Shown one piece after another: positions 1,478 through 47,082 of a stretch of DNA of 64,000 nt. Both the position numbers and the translations under genes were made by a program. Source of the stretch: Fasciolopsis buskii (taxonomy: Eukaryota > Platyhelminthes > Trematoda > Plagiorchiida > Fasciolidae). Under the pieces are notes generated by a model, which ran no database searches, was not told the origin of the DNA, and was given only the letters and a program-made list of their open reading frames with translations. Where the stretch lies: NCBI GenBank assembly GCA_008360955.1, contig LUCM01010546.1, positions 158,560-222,559 on the forward strand, given 5' to 3'. Within the stretch, counting starts at the first letter, position 1, and the number at the start of each line of letters is the position of its first letter.

Positions 1478-1498
1478 TTCTAGCTCGCGTATTAGTTA
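1478..1498 (+). CDS. micro-exon 1 (21 nt)
   Basis: The acceptor lies behind a long T/C tract (about 1457-1477, ending CCCAG) and the donor is GTAAGT at 1499. The exon is open in phase 1 and reads L-A-R-V-L-V between split codons. It is the most upstream member of the series I found; no signal-peptide exon was found between it and the window start. Confidence 0.62.
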
Positions 1499-2428
1499 GT
1501 AAGTGTGAACAGTAAGCTGATCACTTGGTTGCCTTGCTCACTTTCAATGTGGTTTCAACCAACAACGCGATAGACGAAGACCGGATTTTCGATACTTATG
1601 AATCACCGGGGGAATGATAGCAGTGGCGATCAGCAGTGAGTTATTTGGTCCTGACAAAAAATTCACAGTCATGACGTGACGTAGTTTAATATTAGTGGAC
1701 AAGCATCTCGAACGTCGTTTAAAAAAGTAGTTATGAATTCTGAGCATGAAATCCGGACCCACTGTTACCTGCTTCGAATCAACATCCATACAATCGAGTT
1801 ACGCCTAGATTCCTAATTCCAAACCTAATGAGAACGGCGACTCTCATCGTACGGTACTGTTGGTAAAGGCGAGAGATTAATGTGACAAATCGTGCGAACC
1901 CCAAATCGTGAGTTGTCTATTCCACGTAATGCTACCCAAGGACATTCAAATGAGAGTACATCCTTTAGATGACAAAATAAGATGAGAATTCACAGCGCAC
2001 TGTGTCCGTTGGGGGAGCAATCTGAAGGTTTGCAGCTTGGCAACACTGAGTCAGACACGCCTAGTAAGCTCCACACATGCATACACATGCACACACAAAA
2101 CCCACTCATAAAACAAGTTCATTGGCCAGTGGGAAACCTAAGGTAACTGTAACCCTAAACGAGACAGATCGAATCAATCACAGGCGCGTGTGTGTGCGTA
2201 CGCGAGTGCATGTTTGCGTGTATGATCAACGATAGGTTAACTCGCCGGAAGAGTAGTGTGAGTCAGGCAGAAGGTTTCCTGTGAACGTCTATAGGGGAAC
2301 TTCGAAAGTAGTATCGGCGTATGAATGTCAGAAGGCCACTTCGTTTGTTCCTTTCTAGTTTTCGTGCATACACTGTACTAGATGAGACGGCCATCGTAAA
2401 CTCTTGTCACCATCAGGACCAAATGACT

Positions 2429-2578
2429 TAAGGAGTGTATCGAAAAATCAATGTTTCATGTATTGGTTTTAATTGTGAATGATGAGGTGTTAATAATACC
2501 GCGTCGTTGGTAGATGTAATGCGCCAACGTTTCGACTACCGTGGGTAGTCTTTCTCAAAGCAAGTTTTACAATCAAAT
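2429..2578 (+). repeat. Penelope-like repeat unit, direct copy
   Basis: Contains A (GGAGTGTATCGAAAAATC), B (CGTCGTTGGTAGATGTAATG) and C (CAACGTTTCGACTACCGTGG to CAAGTTTTACAATCAAAT) in direct order. It is the least rearranged of the four copies. Assignment to Penelope-like elements rests on the C hairpin and the fold-back copies elsewhere; no RT is attached here. Confidence 0.6.
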
Positions 2579-3705
2579 TATATCATTCAAGTTATCATCT
2601 TTGTCGGAATGCGTGCATTGGACGAATTACCCCTAGTCTTCCCTAAGGCCTATCGTTCGGGATGGAAGCTGATAACCAATTCTGTGAAACGTGGACGTCC
2701 ATTGACATGAGGTGTAGTAAAGAACCCGGGATTAACAAGTACAGATTCTTAGGATTCCACTAGGAGATGCATCTGGGAATATTTAACCCATGCATTCAAA
2801 ATTTGTTCCAAAGTACCGAGTGACAAAAGTACGGAAAGTGAACTCACTGAAATACCCTCATATTGGGAACAGAACGAAAAACAGAGTGGATTCTGGAATT
2901 TAATTCCGTGTATAATTTTATGTGAAATTTAGACTTCTCAAGAAGAGTAAAATTTTGTTTAACCGTAGTGATTGGAGAGCCTGCAAATACCATAAAAATG
3001 CCCCAGGCATTTCTAACATCCATTTTTCTCTTTATTTTCTTCATCAATTAAACAAAAACTTGTCATTTTCATGAATAAGGTCGAGTCAAACAGAAGGCTG
3101 CCATGACCTGATGAATTGCGTCCTCTAAACAGAACCTTAAAAGCGAGCACTTTGAATTTTCGTGAAAAGACCATTGTGGTTGTATATAAAATTTTCAAAT
3201 CAAACAAAAACCATACCAAAGCAGTCAACTGCTGAAAGCAGCTTAATTGACAAGCGTTCCTTCTAGATAACGCTTCATTTACCATACTTTCGGCTTCATC
3301 ACTTCATGATGGCATCGTATGACATTTGTGGTTGGCCAGTTTCGGAAAAAAAGATAGGCACAATTAACAGATGCTCGAAATCCATACTTGGTAATGTGCC
3401 ATTGAGTTTAGTTGCAGAATGGACGTTTTCAATGTGAGCTATGGTTTATATTGCCACTACAATGCGTCTGTGCAGTACGCCGTTAGAAAACTCGATTCGT
3501 CCCAGATAGCAAACGTCCAATCCGAAATCGACAATGATTTCGTCCCCCAAAAATACATAAAGAAAATATGTTTTCGACAATGTCCACAACAATCTGTTGA
3601 CGATACAATAGCTAATAAATCGTTAATTTCGTAACCGAGCACAACATTCACTTGCCAGTGCACTAAGCAAAGCAAAGAAAACTTATACGAATTTTTCCCC
3701 CACAG

Positions 3706-3735
3706 ATACCGGGATAAAAAAATTCAGGATAATTT
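3706..3735 (+). CDS. micro-exon 2 (30 nt)
   Basis: A very good acceptor (TTTTTCCCCCACAG) precedes it and GTAAGT follows at 3736. Entered in phase 1 it reads T-G-I-K-K-F-R-I-I with split codons at both ends. It lies between unrelated chance frames and carries no repeat similarity. Confidence 0.64.
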
Positions 3736-4359
3736 GTAAGTTTGAGGTATCTCGGTACGGATGAAACCTAGTCACCACTAATCATTAAAATATGAGAATG
3801 CCACGATTTCGGCTAGTACGTGGTTGACAAATTTTGGTATTGTATTGCTGTGATAACTCTGTCAATGTTTTTTGACCAACTGCGCGGAGTTATGTACAAT
3901 GAAATCTGCTAAGACAATTGTTAGTACCAGTAGAGTCTGATTGGGTCTGATTCAGTATTTAAATGTGCACGATCAGGGACAATTTCATCTGCAGCAGATT
4001 TGTGTCCAACTGTTGGCAAGCACTGTTCTGTTTTGAAATTCTAGTTTGAATAGCCAGCAGACCACTACTACCCGCGACTTTGATCCGATTATGAAGTCAT
4101 AGCCAAAAGATGGTGCATTTCTGTACTCAATACTCTGGAGCAAAACGGAGTGGGGAGAAAGGATCCAACGTTGTGAATGAAGAAATTTCAGTAAACACAA
4201 GATATCAGGAGAGAATGAATTCCACCTCCCATAAACTCGGAATTATTTGTGAACCGATAACCAAAACCCGTGTCGCGCAAATATATCGGAACTTTCTTGT
4301 TTTCCAGCGGTACCTAACAGGGTGCATCGATTAGCTGGTTGGTTCTATTGCTATTTCAG

Positions 4360-4395
4360 ACAGAAAAGATAAAAATGCCTCCGCGTTAGCAGAAG
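4360..4395 (+). CDS. micro-exon 3 (36 nt)
   Basis: The acceptor is TATTGCTATTTCAG and the donor GTGAGT at 4396 (consensus AAG|GTGAGT). The phase-1 reading is R-K-D-K-N-A-S-A-L-A-E; the other two frames contain stops (TAG, TAA), which supports the phase assignment. A short signal-peptide-like ORF starts 18 nt downstream of the donor. Confidence 0.6.
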
Positions 4396-4413
4396 GTGAG
4401 TTGACATTTCAGA

Positions 4414-4533
4414 ATGGCCGGAAAATTCAATTGTTTCAAGTTTGTCGTTACTGTCCTTTCCTTGTGCTTGCTGTTCGCTTTAATCCTGGCACAAGTCACG
4501 TGTTTCAGTAGATGCAAAATCCAGTCACACTGA
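4414..4533 (+). CDS. small ORF with signal-peptide-like start (39 aa)
   Basis: ATG in good context (CAGAATGG) opens a 39-residue frame ending in TGA. Residues 1-9 carry two lysines, residues 10-26 are an unbroken hydrophobic run (FVVTVLSLCLLFALILA), and a short Cys-containing tail follows. An acceptor-like ACATTTCAG ends one base before the ATG, so it could begin a spliced or trans-spliced mRNA. A weak phase-1 donor (CA|GTAGAT) near codon 32 could join it to the micro-exon series as an alternative first exon. It may equally be a chance ORF in an intron. No family recognised. Confidence 0.3.
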   Translation: MAGKFNCFKFVVTVLSLCLLFALILAQVTCFSRCKIQSH

Positions 4534-5681
4534 GTGACCAACTTTCCAATCTTTTCAAGGTGATCGTTTGTTGCTTTCTTATTTCTGCTCCATCAAATCG
4601 CTTTGCCTGTAGTCTAAGTTCTGACACAAGACAACTGATGTCGTGAACATTAAGCCGAATGGCAAATTGCTCCGTAATTTGTTATGATGGAATAAGCCTG
4701 TGTAATCCAGTTTTAATCAACGAAATCGCCAAAATACTTGGAGGTGACATGATTGCCCAAATAACACCGAAATGATTTGCTTGTCGGTTAGACACAATCA
4801 CCAGATGCCGTGAAAGATTCCCTTCAGGTTGTTGAATAAACACCAACAATGTCCGAGACTATATTTTAGTTGTGAGTTACTAAAGCATGAAAAACCTCAT
4901 TCCAATTCATATTCTACTCACGAAACCTGAAGCAATCCTTTGAAAGGAGTGGACCGCATGGCTTCAGCTTAAAGGACAACATAAAAGGATAGGTGGAAAA
5001 GATAATTCTGCGGTCTTAACTGGACTATAAAGGTTGCCCATGCCAACTGTTGTACAAACAGAATTCTACTGAATTTCGACAGTGACGCTTTGGTGATCAG
5101 TTATTTTCTGTTTTTATTTCCGAAACTGGGTGTGTCCAAATACTTCAAAAAAATGCCAAGGGTCAATCAATTATTTTGTATGCTACTCTTCGGACATGGA
5201 AGATGCTAGGCTTGACTATTCTCCATCCATTGTTTTGAAAAAGTCCTTGAACGATTCACTCAGGCGATAGAACTACACTTGTACAAAATGATACAAGGCT
5301 TCTACCGTGAACCTTTGTTACGATTTTAGGCTTCGCTGAATGGTAATTAGATCACTCTTAATTCTGTTATGTCTCAAATTCTATCTGGTAGTTTGAGCTT
5401 TTGACGGCTGATAGACTGCATTAGGAGTTTCCGAATGCATTCACTCGTGAGTTAGCACTACTCGTGTTTTCATAATTGTTCAGTAACATCCATTTTTATA
5501 CATTTTATCAAAGGATACAGGAACGGCCATATCCACGACATTTGTGAGTCTATAGGGGAATTCGGTGTCCAATATCTGACCGCAATCAACAAACGGTTGA
5601 CGATGTATAAAACTGTACCATTACATCAGACAAAAAATAGGATTTTCATGTTTTCTTCGTAGTCCGATAGTCACCGTGCAG

Positions 5682-5711
5682 AAAGACGCGTGCAACTGCT
5701 AGACCAGAAAA
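5682..5711 (+). CDS. micro-exon 4 (30 nt)
   Basis: The acceptor is GTCACCGTGCAG with a moderate pyrimidine tract upstream (TTTTCTTCG); the donor is GTAAGT at 5712. The phase-1 reading is R-R-V-Q-L-L-D-Q-K, strongly charged. Confidence 0.55.
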
Positions 5712-5982
5712 GTAAGTAGATACAATCAAGAATCCCAGTTAGGATTCTCAATAAATGCAATATAAGGGAGTGTTGAAAATACCAGTGGTATGTGTGCGTC
5801 GGTGTTCCAAACTGATGATACACAAAGTAGACAAGGATCGATTGCGAAAAAGTGAGAATATGAGGCATTTTGCGAAAAGCATATTGCTGACCTAGAAAAT
5901 AATGAATAATCCTGTTATCCTTGTCTAAAAATTGCTCTTAGATACAACTACCCTCCGGAATATGAGGGTGGCTTCGATCTTT

Positions 5983-6022
5983 ACATATATGTATATACGC
6001 ATATACATATATATATATATAT
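5983..6022. repeat. (TA)-rich microsatellite
   Basis: About 40 nt of ATATGTATATACGCATATAC followed by a pure TA run. Confidence 0.85.
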
Positions 6023-7036
6023 TGCACATAATAATGATCGCCGAATAAAATATGAAACAAGCAGTTTTGAGACTAACTCAAAATGTTCTTACATAAGTTA
6101 CGGAGCTCTGTGATCGTACAGCTCAGCGTTCAGATCGCAAACCTTTCGTCAGCCAGGATGATATTATCGGAGCGCAGGCCCTGACATATCCGCGCACTTG
6201 TTTGTAGACTGTCCCTATTTTTCATATACGAAATGAAACCATCCAGTTAGTCGACGCAAAAAAAATTATTGAATTAGAAAAGTTTCCAGTTTAGCATTAT
6301 TCTGAATTAATTCTACATCAAACTAAACTAGAAATTCGACCGTGAGTATGATCAGTTATGCACAAACTCACAAACGTTATTCCCAGATCTCGTTTCATTC
6401 ATTCCAACTTCGGAAATATAGATTATTCACAATTTTTAGCTAACGATCGTTAAGAATTGAACAGTTTAGCGATAAGTCAGTGAAAACTGAGTCCACTGAA
6501 TCAGGTGCTTCGGCACAATAATTCTCTGTCCTTGCGCTTCCCTACATTGCCTATTCGGTCAGGTTCAACGTACTTGGGTTGAATTTTGGGGGGAGTTCAA
6601 TAAATTCTCGTGAACTTCTTGTGTGTCCGTGTGTTTAGTTTAGAAAGTGACACTCGCCTAGAATGAACCCGAGCCATTTGTGATCCGGGTGAACGGAACA
6701 TAATTCTCACTTCGTCTCGACAAACATGCCCACGTTAATCGGTACGTAGTACAAATATGTTCAGCAGCTCAACAGTGGGTATCTCACATGGACCTCAACA
6801 TATGCTCGGAAACCTGAATGTCACATCTTTACCAGAGTACATTCTTCCAAGTTATTCGGAATGACGCAACACAATAATTTAACTCTGCATAACCTGATTC
6901 ATCATTAGTTGTAAGTCATTTTGTACTTAGGGAGATACGGCTAAATGATATTTTCAACTTTTCGTTTTTGGTTAGATCACACAATCAGTCGATGAATTAA
7001 TTTAAAAAAGGTGCTGAGAGAACTATAGACACTCAG

Positions 7037-7063
7037 TGGATGAGAATAATAACGGTTCACAAG
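7037..7063 (+). CDS. micro-exon 5 (27 nt)
   Basis: The donor CAAG|GTAAGG is good; the acceptor (GACACTCAG) has little pyrimidine tract. The phase-1 reading D-E-N-N-N-G-S-Q is very hydrophilic. Included because length, phase and position fit the series. Confidence 0.42.
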
Positions 7064-7626
7064 GTAAGGCCACAGCGAAACTGTAGCAGACGAGCTCTGA
7101 AGCAATTCAGAAATGCGCTAACAATCATTCGAGCCCAACAGGAAAGCGCTTCCATTGTTTCGAAAAAAACCACCGTAGAATTAACACTCATAAGATAACA
7201 ACAAACGTACCGTTTTGTATACATCTTTAGACATCAGAAAAAAGATAGTCTTGGCAATACAAGAAACAAAAAATTAAAAAGCATCAAAGCTCACAATGAA
7301 CATAATCATAGCAGATACCAGTTAAATAAAGTCGATAGTTATCTATTCCAACCAAATGATCAAATGACAACTAGCAACATAAATTAGTGATTGCCAAAGG
7401 GACGTTTAATACATGCATAATATAAATAACCGATGAACGATCTGAAACAATAAAATCGTTAAGGCAGATTCAGATGAATCGCATTGTGAAGACTTTTGTA
7501 TAAAATAAGTGCTGCTGCGTTGCAGTCAAAAATGTTAGGATAAACATGAGACAGGAAAAAAACATTTACACTCATCACTTTGTAAAAATATGAAGTATCT
7601 CATTCAGTAAATATAAAAGCACATCA

Positions 7627-7968
7627 TAACAGGTCGCTCAGGAATTCGGCCGAAACCCGGTCACGGTTGGTCAAAATTCGTGCTAAATATTGGACAGCGG
7701 AATTCCTGTAGATATTGATTCTAGACGGTATAGAATGAAAAGCGGACCGTGTAGAAACATGAGAGTAGGACTTTGGAAGATTGTTTTGCAGAGGATGCGT
7801 GGGATCTGAAAGAATTTTGTTAGCAAATTTCTCACATGCTGATAAGTATTCATCACATGGATTAAGGGACAATTCAGTTAGTGGTACGAAGGACATATGG
7901 CTAATAATTGATAGCATCCGGCGAGCAATTTTAGTCTTTTTTGAGTAAACCTGGAAAAATAATAGGAG
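7627..7968 (-). pseudogene. LINE-like C-terminal domain fragment
   Basis: A - strand open segment of about 110 codons has the layout of the region after the RT in Jockey/CR1-like LINEs: R-R-M-L near the start, C-E-K-F-A-N-K-I-L-S-D, T-H-P-L-Q-N-N-L-P, then S-R-I-N-I-Y-R-N-S-A and a short charged tail before the stop. A pyrimidine tract ending TTTTTCCAG sits at its 5' edge, so a host terminal exon is the alternative. Confidence 0.42.
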
Positions 7969-8653
7969 GACAGTAAAGAAGGATTGAAAACACATTGGTA
8001 TGCAAATCGGGAGATGGTGATTTGTTTTACATTATGGTGCCGAGGCTTTTTGATTTCAGATGAAACCGATTGACAGTGCTGTGATCATGTCAAACGAATA
8101 TATCTGGAATACTGAATGATGTCACGAGATCAGACTTCTTGTTCTCTATTCTCGGCAACTTGGTTTTCATTCACTTCATCGGCCATGCCAACGGAGATTT
8201 TTGCACGCTTCTGTTCGGACCGACCAGATTGATGTTTGGATTGGCCAAGGCAATTTCTCGTAAACGAATGATTCTAAAGTATTTCGTCCTTCGCCTATTG
8301 TTCATTTTGTTGTTCGATCTGCACTGCCTATCATGAAACGGGCCTTCATGAGGTACCAGCAGGAGAAAAGTTGTCCGTTTAAGCTTATCCATCATGTGCA
8401 ATAACGAATAAAATGTGTTCTAATTTTCATTGGTTCGGCGTTTAATTCACTTAATGAAACCCTCCCACTTATTTGCATGTCAATAGTGAAGAAACAGATG
8501 GAAATGTTTAGTAAGTCAGCTCATTGCCTGAAATGGTTATTTCAGTCACCAACTGACTAGTCTGAAACATTTCATTTCACACCGATTGGAACGTGGCTCC
8601 GTGATAAATAGTACTAACTAATGTGCTACCTTTATAATCCTTATGTTTTCAAG

Positions 8654-8674
8654 TCAAAATTATGAGGTCGAATC
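8654..8674 (+). CDS. micro-exon 6 (21 nt)
   Basis: The acceptor follows CCTTATGTTTTCAAG and the donor is GTAAGT at 8675. The phase-1 reading is K-I-M-R-S-N. Confidence 0.58.
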
Positions 8675-8980
8675 GTAAGTAAAATTCCGATCTAGAAACT
8701 CCTTTGCTACTTTCTGCGTATACCTTTGAAACGTTTTGCTCATACAAATCATTGTGTAAGTACTATTAGGAAACCACAATATATTTACTAATTAATTAGT
8801 AATGGCCACCTAACTGCAGCCCATGTTAACATGGAAATGCCATACACCTGAGTGATTCATTTTCGGACTATATTTATCATGCAAGGACCTCGGATCATCC
8901 AGTTATCTTCACTTTCGGAAAGCTCCAGAATCTGGTTCCGCTTTTACTGGACTACATCTGCAGTGCATACTCACATTCAG

Positions 8981-9010
8981 CCGTGCGGTATGAACTCTTC
9001 TCATATTCCC
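8981..9010 (+). CDS. micro-exon 7 (30 nt)
   Basis: The acceptor is CTCACATTCAG and the donor GTAAGT at 9011. The phase-1 reading is V-R-Y-E-L-F-S-Y-S. A second good acceptor 17 nt upstream (CATCTGCAG, exon from 8964) would give a 47-nt exon that changes phase, so the shorter form is preferred. Confidence 0.58.
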
Positions 9011-9630
9011 GTAAGTCAAGTGTGTTGGCGCTGCGTCACTCCACCCCTATCTTGGCTGAACAAAATCTCCTAGTTAACCTTTTTGGTAACGCCCTTGGTG
9101 ACAAGCAGCAGTTCACAGCAAGTCCAAAGTGGGACACAGCAGTTGTCCTTTTAGCTGCAACCCACCGCCTCCTACCAGTGCATCCTTATCACAAGTCCAC
9201 TTGCAACAGCCAATGAACACTACTCGCAAAATGCCTCATTACCACGAGATAGACTTTTAGGAAAGCTTATCTGTTCGTTAAAAGGAGTTTTGAACGGGGT
9301 TTCTAGCTTTCAGCCAGAATTGCGTTTCCCTAGTGTGTTCGGTGCTCTGTAGGCAAACAAAAGGCAAACTGACATCACAATTAAGCCAGGATTAGACTGA
9401 GAGACCACCAGTAGCCTAATCTTGGACCATTTAGTCAAAGCAAGGTTGCAAGCCTGATCGATAAAATGCATTTGATATGTCCCATGGCGTCCCAAGTGAT
9501 CAATAGCGATTTGACTGCGTGGGCTTGCTACTACAGAATCCAGCACAACTCAGGTATTATTTCTTGACTTGCTGCGGGCGCTTTAATTTCCAACCATGAT
9601 CAAGGATGACTTATAAACAAAGGCAAGTAG

Positions 9631-9660
9631 ACAACCCAAAACCGACTGGCTCATGGAGTG
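9631..9660 (+). CDS. micro-exon 8 (30 nt), weak acceptor
   Basis: The donor is GTAAGA at 9661 and the acceptor GGCAAGTAG without a clear pyrimidine tract. The phase-1 reading is N-P-K-P-T-G-S-W-S. One of the least certain members: length and phase fit, the splice sites are mediocre. Confidence 0.33.
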
Positions 9661-10050
9661 GTAAGAATTACATTCTTTCCCTCACACTTATACGTTAGAT
9701 GAATTTTTGTCGTTCCTTCTATTCGAACTTACATGGCAGTTGGACCGTACGTGTGATTACAAAATTCGCTCGGGACTGTTAAACAAAGGGGAACAAATAT
9801 TGATCATCAAAGAATTTTTGATCAAGATAGATTTGCTGTTACCGTGCTACGTAGTCTGACGGCGTTCCACCGAATCAGGGAGCCAATGGATCAAGAAGGT
9901 CGTTTGTCGTACACAGGCCTTGCGAAAAGGGAAATAATTCTTGAATTTGTTTTATCGGGATCTGTACCCACAAAAGGAAAAAACTGATTGTAAAATCAAT
10001 CGAATGCTCTCAAAGGTTCGGATAAACATGATCCTATTCCTCGTTTGCAG

Positions 10051-10071
10051 CCATGATTTCTCGATCTATCT
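10051..10071 (+). CDS. micro-exon 9 (21 nt)
   Basis: A textbook acceptor (CCTATTCCTCGTTTGCAG) precedes it; the donor is GTGAGT at 10072. The phase-1 reading is M-I-S-R-S-I. Confidence 0.65.
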
Positions 10072-11669: not shown

Positions 11670-12725
11670 AGCTTTCTTCCTTGTTTTCCTTATATATAAG
11701 ACAAATAGCTTGTTGAATACAAGGCGAATCCTAACCAAATGCAACTGCACACGCCAATAACAAGGAATTCGGCTTTTGCTTGAAAGGAAAAATGAAATGA
11801 GTAGCCCGTATTGCAGATGTAGAGAGTATCAACCGGGCGTTCAGTTATCCACGCAGAGATTCTGTAGTTTCATGGGCTCTGGATGAATGTGCTGATGTGG
11901 AATTCTCTTTCAGGGAAGAGATGTTCGAACTCCTTCGTTTAACCACAATAACTACAGGCTTAGGTACTCTTGGTATGTCTTCATTTCTAAAGTGAGGTGC
12001 CGCTTCAATGATGGATACGTTTGTTTCTCTTTTTAGTACAGCCTTTTACAAGCATTCCATTCCCGATTGCAACAGACTTGCCATTACTGTGCTTGCACTT
12101 ACATGTAGTCAGTCCCGTATTCCAGACAAACATTTCCATCCCATCGCCCCTTCATCCTGAGGTCTAAAGCTAAAAGAAACTGCCATCCTAAGACACAAGC
12201 CAAATGGCTCTTTTCGGTTTGCCTACAAACCAAACACCTCCACTGCATTACCCAACCTTTGGATGCACCAGATGTTTTCTCGAATTTTTCACCTGCATTC
12301 GATTCTGTTAAACGGTCCTTAATTGTTAGCAAATCAAAACAGTTTGGCTGTCTCAAAAGCCTCTTGGCATGGCCATCTCAGTAATTCACAAACAGGATTC
12401 AGTGTGCAAAATTGAGCCGAAAAATCTACACCATTGGTGAATAACTCTGAGGTACTCGAAATGAGCGGTCCTTTCTCCTTACTCGTCTGCAATACATGTC
12501 AGCGACTTATCTACTTGTTCCTTTGATCAGTCATTCAAACACGCAGGTGACGTTGCCTCCTGCTGATTCGTATTTGGAAACGAGGACTTCCTCAAATTTT
12601 CTAGCAACTTGTCTCCCATTCATGATACTTCTTCGCCTTCTGGTTCAGATTTTAAATTGCCAAAATACGGTCAATGCCTTTCACATATTATCGGTCTGTT
12701 TACCTTTGTGAATACTTTTCACCAA
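11670..12725 (+). repeat. decayed CR1/Jockey-like LINE relic, + copy of an inverted pair
   Basis: Most of this block recurs in reverse complement at about 24065-25200. The clearest shared blocks are at 11720-11760, 11800-11960, 12110-12180, 12270-12450 and 12480-12700. From about 12260 the + strand reads D-V-F-S-N-F-S-P-A-F-D-S-V, about 33 residues later F-T-N-R-I-Q-C, then a decayed G-T-R-N: the order and spacing of the FSKAFDSV, LTNR-Q and SGxPQGSVLGP blocks of CR1/Jockey-type reverse transcriptases. Several in-frame stops show it is dead. The part before 12200 was not recognised. The two copies look very roughly 80% alike by eye; identity was not computed. Confidence 0.6.
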
Positions 12726-17466: not shown

Positions 17467-17481
17467 ACAACGACTCTCTTC
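17467..17481 (+). CDS. micro-exon 10 (15 nt)
   Basis: The strong acceptor CATACCCTGTTCTCAG and donor GTGAGT at 17482 bracket 15 nt, which read N-D-S-L in phase 1. Confidence 0.62.
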
Positions 17482-18380: not shown

Positions 18381-18416
18381 CATCAGAACCGAAAATATAT
18401 CTATACCAAGTATTTT
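18381..18416 (+). CDS. micro-exon 11 (36 nt)
   Basis: This has one of the best acceptors in the window (CCATTTTTTCTCTCCAAAG) and donor GTGAGT at 18417. The phase-1 reading is S-E-P-K-I-Y-L-Y-Q-V-F. Confidence 0.72.
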
Positions 18417-20384: not shown

Positions 20385-21288
20385 ATATGTCCCGCTCTTT
20401 AAAAAGGGGTTGTTCAGTGACTGAGCTAACTATAAGGGTATTAGCCTAATCCCGAAAGCGTCAGAGCCTCTTCCGTCAGTCATCCTTAGCTTGTTATGGA
20501 TGCGCTGATGAAATCTTTGCCCTTTGATAGGTGTTGGTGCACCGTAATCCTTTCGAAAGTCTAACGATCACCGTGTTCGTAGAGATTCGCATATCCTTTG
20601 ACTCTGTTGATAGGTGTGCATTACGGCACTGTTTGTTGAGGAAGGCAGCACCTAAGGAGTGTTTTTCGGTCATCACAGAGTTGCACCATAATACACCAGG
20701 TCCGATTAGGACATACAAACAGCTTTCGCCTCGCTTCGTCGTATCCAGCGGAGTACAGCAAGAGTAGTTTTAGGAAATGAAGTTCAGGTCCTCCAAGGAA
20801 AAAGATATTGCCTCAGAGTTTGCCGATAATAGTGCCTTGCTGATTAACAGCGCACCGGCAATTCAGCGTGCGCTGGACCGTTCAGCGAATGGGGTCTGTA
20901 GGTATGGCATGCTCTTTGCACCACCAAATAAGGAGGTACTTCTTCAAGACTGGCAAGAATCTGTGCTTACACTCGCAGTTTGTGGTGATCAGTTAGGGGT
21001 AGTTAATAGTTTCGAGTACCTCGGTAGACTGTTTACACCTGGGAGAAGTGTTGTGGAGGAAGTCACATCACGAAATGCGACAATCAGCGCAGCTTTTGTC
21101 AACGTGCGACACTTCTGGGAGCACTGCAACATCCAGCTTTCCCTCGAGCGCAGGATTTAAAATGCCATATTTCGTCGTTTTCTTCTTTACAGTTGCGAGA
21201 CTTGGCTCGTGCATGTAGTGGGTGCTCGGCGACTTTCTGTTTTCGACCACGGATGTCTCCAAAGCATTGCTCGAGTCTGATAGGAAAA
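20385..21288 (+). pseudogene. LINE ORF2 reverse-transcriptase relic 1
   Basis: Blocks of a non-LTR reverse transcriptase appear in the right order on the + strand, but in different frames. Near 20394 there is L-F-K-K-G followed by A-N-Y-K-G-I-S-L-I-P (RT fingers). At 20594-20760 come F-D-S-V-D-R-C-A-L and V-S-S-G-V-Q-Q (palm). The block after SGVxQG is deleted. At 20818-20830 E-F-A-D-N-S-A-L-L replaces the expected YADD-containing motif. Then come Q-L-G-V-V-N-S-F-E-Y-L-G-R-L and R-R-L-S-V-F-D-H-G-C-L (thumb and C-terminal region). Stops and frameshifts make it dead. It runs into the gap at 21289. Confidence 0.85.
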
Positions 21289-23100: not shown

Positions 23101-23163
23101 TGAAATAACTTCTGTAGGGTATACAAACTCTTCAACTGGTTGACAGGTCTTTCTTCTTCACAG

Positions 23164-24064: not shown

Positions 24065-25200
24065 TTGGTAGGAATGTAAACAGACCGATAATATGTGAAA
24101 GGCATTGACCGTATTTTGGCAATTTAAAATCTTAAATCCAGAAAGGCGAAGAACAGTTACCTATGAATGAGGGAGAACAAGTTGCCTAGAAAATTTGAGG
24201 AAGTCCTCCGTTTCCAAATAGAATCAGCAGGACGGCAAACGTCCCTGCGTGTTTGAATTGATCTGATCAACAGGACAAGTAGATAAGTTCGCTGCCATGT
24301 ATTGCAGACGAGTTCAAAGGAGTAAGACCGTACATTTCGGAGTACCTCAGAGGTATTTCACCAATGGTGTTGATTTTTCGGCTCAAATTTTGCACAACTT
24401 GATCCTGTTCTGTGGAATTACTGAGATGGCCATTGCCGAGCTTTTGAGACAGCTAAAACTGTTTTGCATTGCTAACAATTAAGCGACCGTTTAACAGAAT
24501 CGAATGCAGGGTGAAAAATTCGAGAAAAATCTGCGCGTGCAATCCAAAGGATTTGGGTAACTGCAGTGAGGTTTTGTCTTGTAGGGCAAACCGAAAGAGT
24601 CATTTGCTTGTGTTTTAGGATGGCCAGTTTCTTTTAGCTTTTAGACCTCAGGATGAAGGGGCGATGGGATGAAATGGCTCTTGTCTGGAATACGGGAACT
24701 GACTAATGTAAGTTGCAAGCCACGTAATGGCAAGTCTGTTTGCAATCGGGATGGAATGCTTTGTAAAAGCTGACTAAAAGAACACTTATCATTGTAAAAA
24801 AATTGGGAATTGAACAAACACATTGGTTTTGTGAAGCCGGCACCTCACTTTAGAATGAAGACACTACCAAGGTACTAAGCCCTAGTGTTATTGTGGTTAA
24901 ACGTAATGGAGTCGAACATCTCTTCCCTGAAAGAGAATTTCCACAATCAGCACATGTCAATCCCAGAGCCCATGAACTACCAGAATCCTCTGCGTGGAAA
25001 CTGAACCCCGTTGATACTCTCTACTCTGCAATACGGGCTACTTATATTGCATTTTTTTCTTTTCAAGCAAAAGCGCAATTCCTTGTTATGGCGTGGTTGC
25101 AGGTTGCATTTGGTTAGGATTCGCCTTGTATTCAGCAAGTCTACTCGTCTTATCCGGATAAGCCGATTACAAAATATCAAGTAATTCGATAAAACAAGAA
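24065..25200 (-). repeat. decayed CR1/Jockey-like LINE relic, - copy of the inverted pair
   Basis: Reverse complement of the block at 11670-12725, with scattered indels. On the - strand the RT region gives F-F-S-N-F-S-P and, about 65 codons on, G-T-P-K-C-T-V-L, closer to the family motif GTPQGSVL than the + copy. Many stops. The two copies may be independent insertions of one family or a local inverted duplication. Confidence 0.6.
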
Positions 25201-28079: not shown

Positions 28080-28109
28080 ATGGAACTGCAGTTCTCACTA
28101 TTCAAAACG
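28080..28109 (+). CDS. micro-exon 14 (30 nt)
   Basis: The acceptor is GGTTTACTGAAATCAG and the donor ACG|GTGAGT at 28110. The phase-1 reading is G-T-A-V-L-T-I-Q-N. Confidence 0.55.
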
Positions 28110-29175: not shown

Positions 29176-30017
29176 AAATCTCAAATGAAACGTAGAAAAG
29201 ATCCGAACATCAATTTTTTGTATTCTGTGGCGTTACTGCAATTAATCGGTTTTTAAAACTACTAGAATAGAAGACCCACCGACAAAGGTTTTTGAGCAAT
29301 ATAAAAGTATCATGTAGGTTATCGCCAAAGTGATATTTCACGCAACCAATAGGAAGTGAAGCAGCTGTGACTGCTCGTTGGTGAACACTGAAGTTTGACA
29401 GTGAATTAATCAATTTTACCGCCAACCAGTATTCTATTTTATTCTGAATTTCAAAGCAACCATCACTCCTAATACTGTGATACATTTTTTCATACTAATT
29501 ATGAAGACCACAGTTTGTTGTTAATGTATGTGAAATATTGTACTCAGGATTTAAGGAACTGTCATGTTCGCAAGGAAATTCCGAAATCACTTAGAGGCGC
29601 ATGTCCTATTCTAGTATCAGTAATTATTATTGTGGTCAGTAGGTCGTTTTTTGTAATGTGAGTTTTAAAACAAAACTAATTTCGGGGGTGGAACGTATTC
29701 TCTTGTATTTTCTGAACACAAACTTCAAAGTGGACTTTCGTTAGGAATACATTCACTAATAAATTTTGTCGCACTTCAACAAAACGAATTAAGGCCTCGC
29801 GATTTTTGTGGTCTGTGCCCAAGGAAATCAAATAAAATAAAACTGTGCAAAGTTATACGCATGCCTTTTTGTAATATTACGATTTTAGCCGTGAATCGAT
29901 TTGAAAACAGTAAGTTTTGCCTCTATTCTGGCTTCGTCCAATGAGGCAGTCGATTCCGAAGGGTAAAACAACTTGATAAAGATCTTTCTTGGTACATTTT
30001 AGTAGTAGGAGATTGGA

Positions 30018-30222
30018 TGTTTGCATGAAATAATTCACCATGTGATATCATCGCTCAACTGACCATAAAGAAACCAGGGAAGCACCGTACAGGTGTTTGA
30101 TCCTTGTTAGGAATGATGAGCAGTGCATATGGACCGCGCCCGAACTGGGACGCGAACCCGGGACGAACGATTCTGAGTCGAACGCCTTAGCCATTACGCT
30201 ACCGGGCAGGCTCTGAACGGTT
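30018..30222 (-). repeat. tRNA-derived SINE, family B, left arm of an inverted pair
   Basis: On the - strand the head reads GCCCGGTAGCGTAATGGCTA (Box A), then CGTTCGACTCAGAATCG, then Box B GGGTTCGCGTCC. A body with CATATGCACTGCTCATCATT follows and the end is GGTGAATTATTTCATG. This is the most complete copy here. Together with 30333-30462 it forms a long inverted repeat. Confidence 0.75.
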
Positions 30223-30332
30223 TGTTCAGTTTCACCACATGATGTTGCACCTATCCGTCGTTGATTTGCACGGTTACTGTCCGTTAGTTCACGTGATCCA
30301 CCCCTACTGATAGATGACTTCGCTGCAGGTAG

Positions 30333-30462
30333 CCCAGTTCGGGCGCGGTGGATATGCACTGCTGATGATTCCTAACAAGGATGAAACAGCTGTACAGTGC
30401 TTCCATGGTTTCTTTATGGTGAGTTGGGCGATGATATCACATGGTGAATTATTTCATGAAAA
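30333..30462 (+). repeat. SINE family B, 5'-truncated right arm of the inverted pair
   Basis: Starts inside the element (CCCAGTTCGGGCGCGGTGG), lacks the tRNA-like head and runs to the same 3' end, TGGTGAATTATTTCATGA. It is the reverse complement of the left arm over about 130 bp, with a spacer of about 110 bp between the arms. Confidence 0.75.
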
Positions 30463-30877
30463 TATCTTTCTAACTGACATAAACAAAGTGATCCTTGCAA
30501 CTCTTTGTTTGTACAATAAAAACAACTAAGTTGCCAACTAGTCAAATGAATTTTAATCGGCTAATGTTAGAGCTTGCTGTCCAAATAATCTCCAACTTTT
30601 CTAACCCAGAGACTACTTAAGCAGACTTCATCGCGACAGTCTGTGGACTGGCACATCCTAATTGCGTCAAACTTATGCCAAACTTATGCAACCATGAATC
30701 TTAACTAAACATCTGCTTATTTTCATCTCATGGTAAATTATATCGAGGAACAGGATGTTCCTTAGCTTTAACTTCGGCCTACCAATGAATTGTAAACTTC
30801 CATTTATAAAAGTACTATTATGTTGATTTTGGTTACTAAATGGCATTGAATTTTACTACTTTGTACTGATATTTCAG

Positions 30878-30901
30878 TCAGTGATGGCATAAGAGAAATG
30901 G
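30878..30901 (+). CDS. micro-exon 15 (24 nt)
   Basis: The acceptor is TTGTACTGATATTTCAG and the donor ATGG|GTAAGT. Only phase 1 is open (S-D-G-I-R-E-M); the other two frames hit TAA or TGA, which supports the phase. Confidence 0.66.
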
Positions 30902-31452: not shown

Positions 31453-31482
31453 ATTTGGATCAAATGGGCTTCAATAATGACG
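31453..31482 (+). CDS. micro-exon 16 (30 nt)
   Basis: The acceptor is CATTGCTATACAG and the donor GACG|GTGAGT. The phase-1 reading L-D-Q-M-G-F-N-N-D resembles micro-exons 18 and 22 (acidic or amide residue, hydrophobic, Gly, hydrophobic), as if these 30-nt exons arose by duplication. Confidence 0.6.
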
Positions 31483-33182: not shown

Positions 33183-33197
33183 CACTCGAAGACAAAA
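33183..33197 (+). CDS. micro-exon 17 (15 nt)
   Basis: The acceptor is CAACATTTCCATCACAG after TTTTCTTTC and the donor GTGAGT at 33198. The phase-1 reading is L-E-D-K. Confidence 0.63.
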
Positions 33198-33934: not shown

Positions 33935-33964
33935 TTATGAATGAAATGGGAATCTATACCGGCG
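33935..33964 (+). CDS. micro-exon 18 (30 nt)
   Basis: The acceptor is CCGTTAAATGTTTGCAG and the donor GGCG|GTAAGT. Only phase 1 is open (M-N-E-M-G-I-Y-T-G); both other frames stop at TGA. Confidence 0.66.
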
Positions 33965-35941: not shown

Positions 35942-35956
35942 ATGACCTGAGACGAC
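35942..35956 (+). CDS. micro-exon 19 (15 nt)
   Basis: The acceptor is CACAACAAATCACAG with CCCTGTC upstream and the donor GTAAGT at 35957. The phase-1 reading is D-L-R-R. Confidence 0.5.
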
Positions 35957-36972: not shown

Positions 36973-36987
36973 AGAACTGGAAAATTA
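36973..36987 (+). CDS. micro-exon 20 (15 nt)
   Basis: The acceptor is TTTATTTGTTAATTATCGCAG and the donor GTGAGT at 36988. The phase-1 reading is N-W-K-I. Confidence 0.63.
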
Positions 36988-37320: not shown

Positions 37321-37329
37321 TGCACCAAG
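37321..37329 (+). CDS. micro-exon 21 (9 nt)
   Basis: A very strong acceptor tract (GCACCTTTTTTCCTCAAG) sits 9 nt before a perfect CAAG|GTGAGT donor. In phase 1 it adds H-Q between split codons. The alternative is a longer exon from 37269, which is also open, behind a weaker acceptor and not a multiple of three. Confidence 0.48.
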
Positions 37330-38242: not shown

Positions 38243-38272
38243 AGTTGCGAGACTTTGGTGTTTTCATCGATG
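38243..38272 (+). CDS. micro-exon 22 (30 nt)
   Basis: The acceptor is CGACTGTACATTGACACAG after TTGATTTTCC and the donor GATG|GTAAGT. The phase-1 reading L-R-D-F-G-V-F-I-D resembles micro-exons 16 and 18. Confidence 0.68.
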
Positions 38273-40301: not shown

Positions 40302-40508
40302 CTAGTGACGAATGGGAACGCTATATCATGTAGTGTTGATGTTAGATTAATCGTTAAGAATCAGCCCGGCTAGCCTAATGGCCAAGGCATTCGACTCGTA
40401 ATCGTTTGTTTCAAGTTCCCGCACGGTGCATATGCACAGTTGGTGATCCCTAACAAGGATTAAACAGCAGTAAGCTGCTTCCGAGGTTATCAATGGCAAG
40501 TTGAGCAA
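40302..40508 (+). repeat. SINE family B copy abutting the LINE 3' end
   Basis: Contains the tRNA-like head AGCCTAATGGCCAAGGCATT, a decayed Box B, CATATGCACAGTTGGTGATC and the tail AGCAGTAAGCTGCTTCCGAG. It begins directly after the last recognisable LINE coding block, and the joining sequence is also present at 36.43 kb. Confidence 0.65.
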
Positions 40509-41081
40509 GTCATTTGGAAAGACTAACAAACTTGCTTAGATGACCTTCACTGGTTCCGTTTGATAGTTACTTTGTTTGACGATTTCTTGAACTTGAGGTC
40601 AAAACTATGCAAAAATCGACACAGATGACGTGAATTCTCAAACATGTTTATGTTCTGCCTTTTTGAACTTTGTCTCAAACTGGCTCTTCCTATGCACCAA
40701 ACTAATTTTGTGGCTTTCGTGGGTCGTCCTATCGACTGCTCAAGCGGCTTGTGGCTAAGTCATACATGAGGTCGTACAAAAATTTCACACGATTTGCTCC
40801 AGTGCCTAACAGCGGCATTTTTGCTAACTACTACTGTATTTATTATCTTAGAAGATTTTATGAGCGCTAACTGGTCACATATTTATAACACACAACACTG
40901 CGCATTCCACATTTTATATTTTAAGATAATTCAGAAAGTAGAGAAGGAAAAATCCTCAGTGGAAGAAAAAATGCACGCCCGAAACGGAATTGTGCTTATC
41001 ACGCATGACCTACGTCAGAATTGCTTTGTTCGTTCATTCAGAACACGGTAAAATTTTGGTCACATTTTTTCACTGGTACAG

Positions 41082-41102
41082 AACATGGAAAAGTTGAGAA
41101 AA
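41082..41102 (+). CDS. micro-exon 23 (21 nt)
   Basis: The acceptor is CATTTTTTCACTGGTACAG and the donor GTAAGT at 41103. The phase-1 reading is H-G-K-V-E-K. A possible 6-nt exon lies 35 nt upstream (41042-41047) behind a good tract, but its donor GTAAAA is poor. Confidence 0.64.
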
Positions 41103-41677
41103 GTAAGTTCACTTTTTCATTGATTTTCCTCCGAAGCAGGCTTAACTTTTTTAATGAATAACAATGACCGGCAAAAGACTCGACTAATCTAATGTGTTCA
41201 TTCTACTCTCCGAGAATAGTTGGTTTTATGCTTAACTGAAGAGTTAACAGTATCCCAATAACGCCTTTTGGGTAAAAAAATGACTTATAAGCGCAACGAG
41301 ATATTTGCATTCGTTTTGTGAAGAAAGTGACAATTACCTTGGAATTCCTTCCCATTCACAAATGAAGGGGATCCAAAAGTGGATTACTGTTGTCTTGGTA
41401 GATAAAATTCTCGAACAAATGATCCGTTTTTGCGGATTTCTCGACAAATAATGATAATCTTTCATCAAAACATTCCATCAAATTTTTCGTACTCGAATTT
41501 TGCACCTCAAATATGGTGTAGTAAAACTGCAAAACAGATTCTTCTGTGCTTTATGTTTCCACATGGTGCCTGTAAGAATATGAAATAATTTAGCTGACAG
41601 AATCCCATGATCCATAATCAGAGGTAATCTGTGGGAATCGTGTGTGTTTTCCTCACCCAATTCCCGATGCTCTATAG

Positions 41678-41701
41678 CTCGAAATAGAATTAATTTGGAT
41701 G
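41678..41701 (+). CDS. micro-exon 24 (24 nt)
   Basis: The acceptor is TTCCCGATGCTCTATAG after TTTTCCTCACCC and the donor GATG|GTAAGT. The phase-1 reading is R-N-R-I-N-L-D. Confidence 0.64.
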
Positions 41702-42082
41702 GTAAGTTATTCAAAACCAATCCTATATCCCTGTTTAGCAACTGAGTGATTTTTGACGATGAAAATCTGACAATTTGCCATCACTTTGACATCCGATGGA
41801 TCTAAAATACGAGTGGGATGAACTGAGTGACAAAATCTCCAACTGTGCTCCATTCTGCATAGTTAACGTTTAATTTGCCGGGTTCATAGTGGGGAAAATG
41901 CGTGTATCTTTGTGCTAGGTTTTATTAAAACTATCAAACTGTCCTATTGCAGAATTTTTAAACAAATTGAACTTTTTCTTTACCTTGTATCTTTTATCCT
42001 GTTGAATGATAACCTAAAATTGTGCGATATTTCCGAAAAAGCGGTTGCTGTAAACAAGGGCTGAACGAGTGGAAAAGTTGTC

Positions 42083-42168
42083 CCTCATTTGGGGATTCGG
42101 ACGCGCTACCTTCACGTTCAAACGCCACTAACCTGTTAGGCTTACCACCGCTGGTTAGCCCATACAGT
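42083..42168 (-). repeat. decayed SINE, family A head
   Basis: On the - strand GGCTAACCAGCGGTGGTAAG stands for Box A and GAACGTGAAGGTAGCGCGTC with CCGAATCCCC for the anticodon arm and Box B. This matches the order and wording of the 15.56-kb element. Confidence 0.5.
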
Positions 42169-43214
42169 ATTTCAAATGAAGTAATATAAAGGAATGCTAT
42201 CACTGTCACTCTCAGAACTGAGGCTGTACTCCATACCGAATCGGTTGAGAGTGAAATAAAAGTCACTATATAAATTCTCAAGTCATTCTGAAGCGGGTAT
42301 AGCGAAAAGCTGTCAGCAGACTTTTAGTTCCGATCAAGTGTTATGTTCTTATTCTGACCTGGTAAAAGGCTGTAACAGGTTTTTCCAGGGAATGTAGAAC
42401 ACTGAGCTTCAACTTAAGGATAGCAAACGTTTCAATATTTTTATTGGTCGTTCCTGGAGTTCGCAACTTCATGAAAAAAGTGAGCTTTGAATAACACCAT
42501 TTGAAACCATTGAGATTTTGACAGATTTGGCTTCAATTTTTATTTACTCGCTCAAGTTGCCGTATTACGCGTAGGGTTAGTCAGCCGCCAGCTTTACTTG
42601 TCTGAAGACATGCGCAAAAACTAAAAATATGAGAACCTTCATTGAGGTACTTTCAAACACTAAAACACCAAAACTTTTCTAAATCTAACCAAAGTTTTCA
42701 AGCTTTGAAAAGTGTCCCAACGTGTTTCCAACAAAGTTGCAGGATAAAATAAATATTACTTTTCCATGTTTTCTTCTTCTTCATGCTTTGAAATCCAAAA
42801 AGTTTGTCAATTTCTAGTGAAGAATGTCCTCAAAAAAACGAGTATCTGTCGCAAAAAGTGATATGCTTAATTGTGTTTACCTCGAAACTAGCATCGAACA
42901 GCATTTTTTTGATCGAGTCGCAAAGTATTTGCGTTGATCAAACAAAAACCAGACGAACAGAATTAAAACAAGATGATTAATAGCTGTGGTAGTGGCCATC
43001 AACAACTTGTAATTGCAGACAACTGGTGATGTGTAGGTGAACGAACGGTGGATCGTGGTAGTCATTCGCCGAAAAAAAACCTGAAAAAAATCGAACTTTA
43101 AATGGGGGCATAAGAATCCAGAGTTGATTCAAAGAACATGTTGTTGTTTAAGTGATTGTATGGCACTCCAAGAAGGTAACAGTTGTGCTTCTTATTTTAC
43201 ACATTATTCAACAG

Positions 43215-43244
43215 GGATCAGGCTGTACGATAATTCGCCAAACA
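43215..43244 (+). CDS. micro-exon 25 (30 nt)
   Basis: An excellent acceptor (CTTCTTATTTTACACATTATTCAACAG) and donor GTAAGT at 43245. The phase-1 reading is I-R-L-Y-D-N-S-P-N. It lies inside the longest chance open frame of the window (from about 43160 to 43645), which simply reads through this exon and its flanking introns. Confidence 0.7.
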
Positions 43245-44800
43245 GTAAGTCAAGTTCTGTGTACGAACATATCGAAGTTCGCTGTTTTCTTAGTTGGCCT
43301 GTTCGTCCGGTGTCAGATAACCAAGTCCCAAAATGTTCACCACTGCCCGTGAGAAAACTTTTATTGGTGAATCTCATGTTCGCTGGTTGCAGACACATGC
43401 ACACTACAAGCGCATTTCGATCGACGGTAACCGTTCATTTTTTTCATTTCTTTCGAACATCCGAAAGCCGTGTGCCCTCTGACCTTCACCACAGTTATCT
43501 ACTACATTTTCGTCAAATATGTGTGTGCCTTCGTTCCTTTCACGATCTTGTGTGCAAATTTGACCGTATGAGCAATTCGCCGGGGCCCTATTCGCTTTGC
43601 ATATGGAGCTGCATTGGAACTCAGCTAATGGAGCTTGCGCACTAGGTACAGTTCAGTGAAAGACTCTGAAATTAAGCCCATAAAGAAGCATTACATTTGT
43701 TACTTGAATTATTCACGCTCCTTATCTAGACCGTATGCATTGTTACTGCCGAAGCGAAGACTTTAAATTTTGTGTCCGTCATGTTTCACGGATATTGGAT
43801 CATTCGCGAAAATTTGGTTCCGTTTCTGAGGACAACCCTAAATCGGTACATGTAGTCGTATGCTTGTAACAATATTAATGTTCGAAGAACTTTTTGTCAG
43901 TAAAATTCATATACCTTTTAGGCTGTTCTCGAGGAGGCAATTATCTCTCAAGAATTTCATTCAAAATGAAAATTTATGGTCTAATCAAAATAAGCAGACA
44001 ATATCTTGTAAATTCAGTAAGACCAAATTACCTATTATGAAAGCAGACGAGGTCCCTATTGAGCATGACCCGGAATTACTTAAACTGGAATTCTAGTCCT
44101 TCAAAACAAGTCACAATAACCGCAATGAAAATCCAAGAGCATACCGAATTCTCGTAACCATACTGGCTTACATTACCTTTGAGCTTCTGCTTGAGTTTCA
44201 CAACACTTCGATTAACCAAGCTGAAACGAGTTTTATATTTGAGTTTTATTAGTCGACTTATTGTCTATTGTACCTTATTCGAATAGGTGAACATGAAAAT
44301 CGATAACTCTTCCAAAATCAGTCTCTGGGTAGACATTTTCAGGAAGATATATCAACTGTGAAAACAAAGGATTGGCTGGTTACCATTGCGTTAGGGTTGC
44401 CATTTGGCATCTGTGAAATATGTGAGCACTTAAGTGGAAAAGTGCATCCGCGTAAGAGGCAAATAGAACCAGTTTGCCATGTATCCTTTTTCCCAATAAA
44501 GTCAACACAAAAATAACCAAACATTTGTCGTGTTTCAACGCGAGCGAACTAAATGAAACAAACAAAAAGTATTTTAAGACATTAAGTGCGAATTTTTCAC
44601 GTAACATTTTCTCGCAAAAGACTGGCGGAAAAATTGATGACAATAATTTGACTCAATAGCCATGTTTCATTCAATGGCTTTAGAATCATTAATGCCATAA
44701 ATCACGAGGATAATCTGCACCGTGTATGGGAATGCAAGATAATTTCATCCCGGTTAGGATTGCTAAACTCGTAGAAGACATGACAGTAGGACACCATTAG

Positions 44801-44812
44801 GGATCCAAGACG
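44801..44812 (+). CDS. micro-exon 26 (12 nt)
   Basis: The donor GACG|GTAAGT is strong; the acceptor GGACACCATTAG is mediocre. The phase-1 reading is I-Q-D. Confidence 0.4.
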
Positions 44813-47070
44813 GTAAGTTTCTTTCGAACACAAGCTTCAATATTGCCCGAGCCATATGAATTAGCCATTCGATTCGTGTTTATGTAAAAATTATTCCCAA
44901 CCTTTTGTTGCCCACTTGGCAACGCAGATCCTTTTGTGTGACGGCAACTAAGCCAAATATGGGATAATAAAAATATCACCATGTTTACCGTTTGCCGGGC
45001 CTAGTAAAATGAAGTTTCCACCTAGTGACCGTGGCAAGATTTGTTTCCTCATTGTACACAACGGTCTTAGGAACATTAAGCTAAGTTGTGAATGGTTTTC
45101 GCGTATGAGTTGCAACCCCGAAGGATAAGAGTTATCGTCATTTCTAGGGAGGAACATTTCAAGTTTCAAATTATCTAGCAAATTGCCAGCTACATATTAC
45201 CTTTTACATCTTAAATTGTAGTCAATTATGTCAATTCAAGACCGTGAGTTAAAGAGCATTTCTATTGGAAATATTCAAGCAGTCATCGATTGTTTTTCCT
45301 CTTAGTTTTACTTTCCCTGATGAAAGTAAATATCTCACCAATATTTTTTTGATTTGATAAGTGAAAGCAATTCCTCATCTCGTTTTTCGAGGTTCGCCCA
45401 ATTAGCTAAGTTTATCCGCGTCACACGTGAAAAAACTTTCCACATTGATCCGATTCTCATTATCGCGAAACTTGCCGCGAAACTGAATTCAGTTCATGTG
45501 AAAAAAATCATACGATCAGAAAATTATAAAAGTGTGCTGTTCTGTCCACATTTGTATGCTTTTTTACAAGCGTATTTGTCTTGGGATAAAAATTGAAGCT
45601 AGTTCACCTGCCCCATTTATCACGATCAATCAACACGCGTGCAATATCCAAATCGTGGTACTCACCTAACACAGCCACACTGAATGACTGTTGGTGTGAT
45701 GAGATACTTGTTGGCACGGTGAATCACCTTGATTAAACCCATCTAAAAAAACAAAATACCACGGGGTTTTATGCAACAACTTTATCAGCAAACTCTAGCC
45801 CAGTTGTAGCTAACAATTATAAATAGAACTATTCGACGCAACCTTCTGTTTGTACTGGTCACCTCATTTTGGGAGGTTTACGGAATTGATTATTTTGATT
45901 TCATTTCAGATACAAAAGGAGAACATAGTCGTCCGGATTGGATTTGATAACCGGCTCCCCCGAATGTGACTTTTGGTCATTTTGTTAATGAGATAATCTC
46001 ACTACTGGACGGTACATCCAGATGAATTGATTACACCTTGATGTCCATGATTTTACTTGCATTATATAACACTGTCTCACAGCATTATAAAGTACCTCGA
46101 TTAAGAGGTGGTGACATTGTGGCTGTTTTGTAAAGTTCGTTATGCTGAGACGGTAATTTTAAGAAATCTAAACAAACTGTGGGAACCGTTCGTTAAACAG
46201 GATGAAAGAAATAATGAACCTCAATGAATTCGTGCTCATTTGCATTCTATAAGAAGCAGCAATCTCACATATGAGCAAAGTGGATAGTTCCCACAGAGTT
46301 CTCAGTAATAATTCATATTTGTCGGGGTTGCCCAATACTTGAGGACAGCTAAGTATGCCTTTTTTTAAAGAGCAAACTGTTTAATGTAGAGCATGCAGTA
46401 TGCTGTGTGGAACTTCTGAGGTGCCTGGTAGGTTTAGTATCTCTGAGCTGATATTCCTTTGTACCCCTCTGTGGTATCCATCGTTCTGGTTTTCATCGGT
46501 ACTCATCTATTATCTGCAAATTCTAAAGCATTGTGGAATGAGTCACTCCCCGGAAGACCGTTTGAAAAGTGGGCTAAGCCAAACTGAGGTTAATCACGGT
46601 CCAAATCTCCGTTGGGATGGCTTTCATCATGCTAAAGCAGTTACCCTTGAATAGGATGCTGAAATTTAATTGCCGATCCAACTGTTGTGAAGTAAGTTTG
46701 TCACTTCGTCAGGGTTTCATAGATCTTTCAGTCGAATGGCAAACGAGATCTTACGGAGCCACCGGCAGCCACGTATTCACAAATAGCCTGCTTGCAGTCT
46801 GTGTATGGCTGTGCAAAGATTAAAAGCGCACTCTCGAAGACAAAACCTGAGTGACGCTGTGGGCATTTGATGTGCCAATTATCATTAAAGCATAATGATC
46901 CTGGCTTTGACTCGTTCTGTTATCTACACTACGCCTTAGTCTCCTTCACGAGCTTGAGAATAAAAATGTAAACCAGACCCTTTGTTTTCCAAAAAACTTC
47001 CAATGTAGAATAGTGGGAAGTGAGGACTCTTTCGGATACGGCTAATCTGGTCGTGAGTGTTTGCTTGCAG

Positions 47071-47082
47071 CACGATTAACAA
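47071..47082 (+). CDS. micro-exon 27 (12 nt)
   Basis: The acceptor is GAGTGTTTGCTTGCAG and the donor GTGAGT at 47083. The phase-1 reading is R-L-T. It is the last member with a consensus GTRAGT donor. Confidence 0.53.

Follow-up and report, generated by a model that had tools for sequence, protein, structure and literature searches.

In micro-exon genes (MEGs), symmetric exons of 6-36 nt make up about 80% of the coding sequence, and the products are almost always secreted or membrane-anchored (PMC5825161). A gene is classed as a MEG if it has at least seven exons and if at least half of these are micro-exons, shorter than 70 nt and a multiple of three (3n) in length, in runs of at least four (PMC7653826). 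In Schistosoma mansoni such genes have 10-20 short exons and introns of 0.1-5 kb (PMC10526429). In MEG-26 the exon pattern is internally duplicated (PMC5825161). One S. mansoni VAL gene has 38 coding exons, and VAL-6 has a MEG-like portion (PMC4350168); we read the two as the same gene. MEGs are not mentioned in the available sections of PMC11727788.

Here we describe a candidate of this kind in Fasciolopsis buskii. The window, i.e. the whole stretch of 64,000 nucleotides that was analysed, covers positions 158,560 to 222,559 of contig LUCM01010546.1 (C6199:158560-222559), a contig of 295,961 bases with a GC content of 0.413 in an assembly of 703,196,239 bases and 6,974 contigs. Negative coordinates denote positions upstream of the window start on contig C6199, where 4,888 Ns (-4887..0) lie directly 5' of the window. 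On the + strand, from about 1.5 to 43.6 kb, there is probably one gene, or two neighbouring genes, with the coding sequence spread over roughly 17-21 symmetric phase-1 micro-exons of 9-36 nt.

As predicted, the candidate fits the structural definition of a MEG. It has 24 listed exons, 17 of which reach 13 bits or more in the scoring described below; all share phase 1, and they form predicted runs of 11 and 13 micro-exons, between which longer exons could exist. All 24 are 9-36 nt long with 3n lengths, but exons of this type are what the search was designed to find. Like the MEGs of Schistosoma, Echinococcus and Hymenolepis, as described in the available sources, the candidate would have runs of many 3n exons of 6-36 nt in one orientation, with introns mostly of 0.1-5 kb. 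Unlike those of S. mansoni it would have more exons than the 10-20 given and two introns longer than 5 kb; in addition, no convincing signal-peptide exon was found in the window and no sequence family was identified. Three 30-nt exons with related peptides recall the MEG-26 family, where similar exons are repeated within one gene, but here only three are alike and their similarity is weak. The locus appears to add a large new member to a known kind of gene rather than to represent a new one. A first-pass annotation of this DNA had called the gene larger than usual, which is a weak claim: with 38 coding exons in S. mansoni VAL-6, exon number alone is not new (PMC4350168).

VAL-6 also has many small symmetric exons in a long run, and with its MEG-like part (PMC4350168) it is a precedent for a composite gene, encoding a CAP domain followed by a tail of micro-exons, whose size would fit. 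Such a gene is nevertheless very improbable here, as no CAP exon was found on the contig of the candidate: a six-frame genome search for CAP (PF00188), with 32 candidates scored, gave two exons (on contigs C3401 and C2965) and none on C6199, although CAP exons that are short or divergent, or one that lies within the Ns upstream, could be missed by such a search.

Excess of symmetric segments on the forward strand

Candidate segments were collected by an unbiased rule that ignores length class and frame: a [C/T]AG acceptor with at least 9/15 pyrimidines, a GTRAGT donor, and a length of 6-39 nt. On the + strand of the window this yields 24 candidates, 18/2/4 (slash triplets give candidate counts by length modulo 3, 3n first), and the 18 unselected 3n candidates are open in phase 1 in 16 cases, in phase 2 in 11 and in phase 0 in 8. 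The - strand yields 15 candidates, 5/5/5, all five 3n ones being open in phase 1. In 300 dinucleotide shuffles the phase-1-open 3n count averaged 1.95 (standard deviation, SD, 1.45; maximum 7), and not one shuffle reached the observed 16. The reported enrichment of such segments on the + strand, seen here between 1 and 44 kb, holds against shuffled sequence and against the opposite strand (16 vs 5). The hand counts that accompanied it do not: about 42 (+) and 30 (-) GTRAGT hexamers were given and the window holds 51 and 33, and the background of 2 in about 30 on the - strand was too low. If every AG counts as an acceptor (the loose rule: 6-39 nt, GTRAGT donor, phase-1-open 3n), 12/33 donors on the - strand close such an exon, compared with 30/51 on the + strand.

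Replacing GTRAGT by each of six decoy hexamers gave 2/1/2, 3/6/4, 4/3/3, 2/7/1, 0/2/0 and 2/3/5, or 13/50 3n when pooled, which is no excess. Together with the excess seen relative to shuffles, the opposite strand, the contig flanks and in leave-one-out scoring, this makes it very unlikely that short AG...GTRAGT segments are merely common and that fitting ones were picked, an explanation that would be suited by the loose-rule yield on the - strand and by the fact that at least one reported exon (30398) is a repeat.

Contig-wide controls cover contig C6199 only (296 kb, both strands). With at least 8 pyrimidines, the 3n share is 22/30 in 1-44 kb (+), 19/61 on the rest of the + strand and 20/69 on the - strand of the contig; against the pooled controls (39/130) Fisher p is 1.6e-5, and at pyrimidine thresholds of 7, 9 and 10 it is 4.8e-7, 4.6e-5 and 1.4e-4. 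The 44-kb border was chosen after the window had been seen, so that these shares and p values are flattered. Within the window (threshold 8) the 3n counts are 9/12 in 1-11 kb, 3/4 in 11-28 kb and 10/14 in 28-44 kb; past 44 kb (44-64 kb) there is no excess, with 2/5 (2/2/1). When the contig is scored with the exon model described below, the flanks are unbiased (14/15/14 upstream, 8/10/7 downstream) versus 41/12/9 inside, the last figure being partly circular. The excess of symmetric phase-1 exons is confined to a single strand and a single part of the contig, and their composition in that phase is codon-like. This signal is more than chance, and it is smaller and less clean than first reported.

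Predicted exons, frame and composition

A splice-site score was built from 22 chosen exons, and each exon was scored by a model from which it had been left out. At 14 bits or more, 21 phase-1-open exons lie in 1-44 kb (+) where 2.6 are expected per 43.6 kb, an expectation derived from 14 control finds (10 on the + flanks, 4 on the - strand); at 13 bits or more the figures are 23 and 4.1. Seventeen of the 21 are among the 24 listed exons (Table 1), and the repeat at 30398 is one of the other four. Five model exons fall below 13 bits (8654, 30878, 31453, 35942, 41678), as do two from outside the model set (5703, 8981). Five segments score above 13 bits and are unlisted (469, 10928, 11958, 23164, 27263), their donors being mostly other than GTRAGT. 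From the 17/21 overlap and the five low-scoring members of the 22, we estimate that roughly 17-21 exons are real, not the 27 of the first-pass annotation; the listed exons total only 561 nt (267 in group A, 294 in group B), where at least 211 codons had been claimed.

Table 1. Predicted phase-1 micro-exons of the candidate gene in window coordinates, with leave-one-out splice-site scores
Feature	Position	Strand	Length (nt)	Score (bits)	Remarks
A1	1478..1498	+	21	19.8	
A2	3706..3735	+	30	14.6	
A3	4360..4395	+	36	16.4	Phase 1 the only open frame
A4	5514..5543	+	30	14.2	AAG acceptor
A5, weak	5703..5711	+	9	<13	GTAAGT donor; alternative acceptor 5682
A6	8487..8510	+	24	14.3	
A7, weak	8654..8674	+	21	<13	AAG acceptor
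A8, weak	8981..9010	+	30	<13	Within 128-aa open frame; surroundings single copy in genome
A9	10051..10071	+	21	17.8	
A10	17467..17481	+	15	16.1	
A11	18387..18416	+	30		36-nt form (acceptor 18381) 15.9 bits; surroundings single copy
B1	28080..28109	+	30	14.7	
B2	29889..29909	+	21	17.3	
B3	30878..30901	+	24	<13	Phase 1 the only open frame
B4	31453..31482	+	30	<13	Peptide LDQMGFNND, like B6 and B10
B5	33183..33197	+	15	17.1	
B6	33935..33964	+	30	16.6	Peptide MNEMGIYTG; phase 1 the only open frame; single copy
B7, weak	35942..35956	+	15	<13	Phase 1 the only open frame
B8	36973..36987	+	15	19.1	
B9	37321..37329	+	9	15.4	AAG acceptor
B10	38243..38272	+	30	14.8	Peptide LRDFGVFID
B11	41082..41102	+	21	15.3	
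B12	41678..41701	+	24	<13	TAG acceptor
B13	43215..43244	+	30	15.4	
B13, alternative	43215..43645	+			3'-terminal coding exon; 142 codons, phase 1, to TAG

Codon-like composition is seen in the listed exons as a whole. A purine occupies codon position 1 in 107/163 codons, compared with 86.0 (SD 6.6) in a null of random phase-1-open segments (3/2000 sets), and the overall codon-position information is matched by 9/2000 null sets. When 44801 and 47071 are included, the resulting 26 exons hold no stop in phase 1 versus 12 and 14 in the other frames, although exons were chosen for phase 1. All 23 adjacent junctions of the listed exons give sense codons; to this extent the earlier statement that no junction creates a stop is correct, the failing case being the step from 5514-5543 to 5682-5711, which gives TAA. 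Among splicing-enhancer words near the exons, only the pyrimidine-rich TTTTC stood out, upstream of exons.

Four candidate exons were set aside. For 5682-5711, given the TAA, 5703-5711 was taken instead; the acceptor of 44801 is weak; 47071 lies outside the enriched part; and 30398-30418 belongs to a dispersed repeat, its 21 nt and flanks being identical at -6268, upstream of the window. This repeat (30016-30466 and -6268..-6248) has 134-nt inverted arms that are 91% complementary; within it, a splice-like segment of 21 nt has the look of a phase-1 micro-exon.

A codon-like composition and peptides that are in part repeated would suit any coding gene, including a conventional one with unusually short phase-1 exons that encodes a conserved cellular protein and in which skipping has no role; the lack of a convincing signal peptide in the window would also agree with this. 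Conventional genes, however, are not usually built of 9-36 nt exons throughout. When the exon peptides of groups A and B were searched as X-separated strings, Pfam gave no family for either up to E 10, and for group B the Protein Data Bank (PDB) gave one match, at E 0.9, although with pieces of 2-11 residues such queries are weak. We consider a conventional gene improbable.

For a micro-exon gene, a pre-mRNA of tens of kb would be spliced through tiny exons, with introns of 0.1-2.8 kb plus two of 7.4 and 9.7 kb, and the exons would be joined in one message. Because all exons are 3n and in one phase, omission of any of them would preserve the frame and alter the protein by a few residues, with only the junction residue changing, and variants might arise through exon skipping. 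The product may be secreted, by analogy with known MEGs. The layout permits combinatorial skipping; the junction figures are not clearly different from chance, and 4/55 exon pairs of group A make a junction stop.

One gene or two, and the gene ends

A single gene over 45 kb had been proposed. Same-phase exons do continue to 43.2 kb, but they fall into group A (11 predicted exons, introns 143-7,395 nt) and group B (13 predicted exons, introns 333-2,809 nt), 9.7 kb apart, and the 3n excess ends at 44 kb. Two adjacent micro-exon genes, at 1.5-18.4 kb and 28.1-43.6 kb, are a possibility to which we give a distinctly smaller than even chance. The break itself would be explained, exon ends differ in that some group A exons end in T (4/55 pairs of this group make stops) but 0/13 of group B do, and S. 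mansoni MEGs occur in clusters (PMC10526429). The two groups, however, share strand and phase, and the junction from 18387-18416 to 28080-28109 is TAT, not a stop. A search of the break for a first or last exon gave nothing convincing, since no candidate at 18-28 kb is both phase 1 and signal-like, and transposon-like remnants could have lengthened one intron. These are the open reading frame (ORF) 20774-21160, presumably such a remnant, and the inverted repeats near 12 and 24 kb.

A scan for hydrophobic first exons gave 18 candidates on the + strand of the window (7 in phase 1), 20 on the - strand (5 in phase 1) and 22 in the upstream flank (6 in phase 1). The phase-1 candidate at -22004..-21950 has a signal-like start and a strong GTGAGT donor; it is kept as a lead only, since the scored scan has no 3n excess from -22.5 kb to the window (6/1/7). 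At the 3' side, 43215-43645 is the longest of the phase-1 runs that follow the 503 + strand acceptors. It shows no codon-like period 3 (rank 109/291) and has no second copy in the genome; Pfam gave nothing for it up to E 0.1 and the PDB one weak match (E 0.93). As a terminal exon it is an alternative reading of B13. ORF 50051-50431, considered as a terminal exon, has no Pfam match, unremarkable GC by codon position and a length that, as we estimate, chance could produce. Neither Rfam at the gathering score nor ARAGORN gave any match, and one 36-nt pattern searched in viral_contigs gave none.

The peptides of B4, B6 and B10 are alike, their summed similarity being equalled by the best trio in 2/2000 shuffles, a post hoc comparison. 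The introns beside them are unlike each other (16-25/60 bases), so any duplication would be old. The surroundings of 33935, 8981 and 18387 (3/24 exons tested) have no second genome copy, and these three are therefore not transposon copies. A bolder proposal would be a single gene of at least 42 kb with about 24 or more micro-exons, all in phase 1, derived partly from a repeated 30-nt exon encoding [LM]xx[MF]G[FIV]; exon choice would then compose proteins from interchangeable decapeptide units, and the gene would represent a MEG family without known relative. We regard this as unlikely.

A gene of many symmetric phase-1 micro-exons, which would work like a schistosome or tapeworm MEG, as the first-pass annotation had suggested, is the best reading of the locus, but several points count against it. 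The exons are predictions from sequence, and the window holds no convincing phase-1 signal-peptide exon. Seven of the 24 listed exons score below 13 bits, a level at which chance alone should give at least 4. Skipping has no special protection: 16/325 pairs among the 26 segments make a stop (4.9% vs a null of 6.4%), and while no pair does so in group B (0/78), the null chance of this is 14.5%. Taken alone, the most similar pair of 30-nt exons is not significant (155/2000). Finally, a smaller bump of six phase-1 candidates accompanied by six non-3n ones, at -38.6 to -18.6 kb, blurs the 5' border of the enriched region.

Neighbouring elements and significance

Between 11936-12706 and 24073-24903 there are five inverted-arm pairs of 47-78 nt, with 72-97% complementarity and a spacing of about 11.4-12.9 kb; the two segments are copies of one element in opposite orientation, within the long introns or next to them. 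At -50141..-49080 there is a single open frame of 354 aa that by eye resembles a seven-helix receptor; a search with 305 of its residues gave no Pfam or PDB match. At contig positions 42263-62642, open frames of 173 and 223 aa recur several times and in either orientation; we take these to be retroelement-like. Elsewhere on the contig there are reverse-transcriptase fragments (2/7 ORFs searched) and an OGFOD1-like 2-oxoglutarate (2OG) oxygenase exon, which point to an animal-type genome; the look of the retroelements would suit a flatworm. A search for the trematode eggshell family PF08034 gave no match, but neither did any control.

MEGs escape gene finders, and outside Schistosoma and a few tapeworms their annotation is poor. 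A signal such as that used here (3n lengths, one phase, one strand), which would find such a gene in raw sequence without RNA and with an error rate measured against flanks and shuffles, could be scanned for genome-wide. If the prediction is true, the F. buskii gene would rank with the longer MEGs and would provide a test of the number of micro-exons that a single message can hold.

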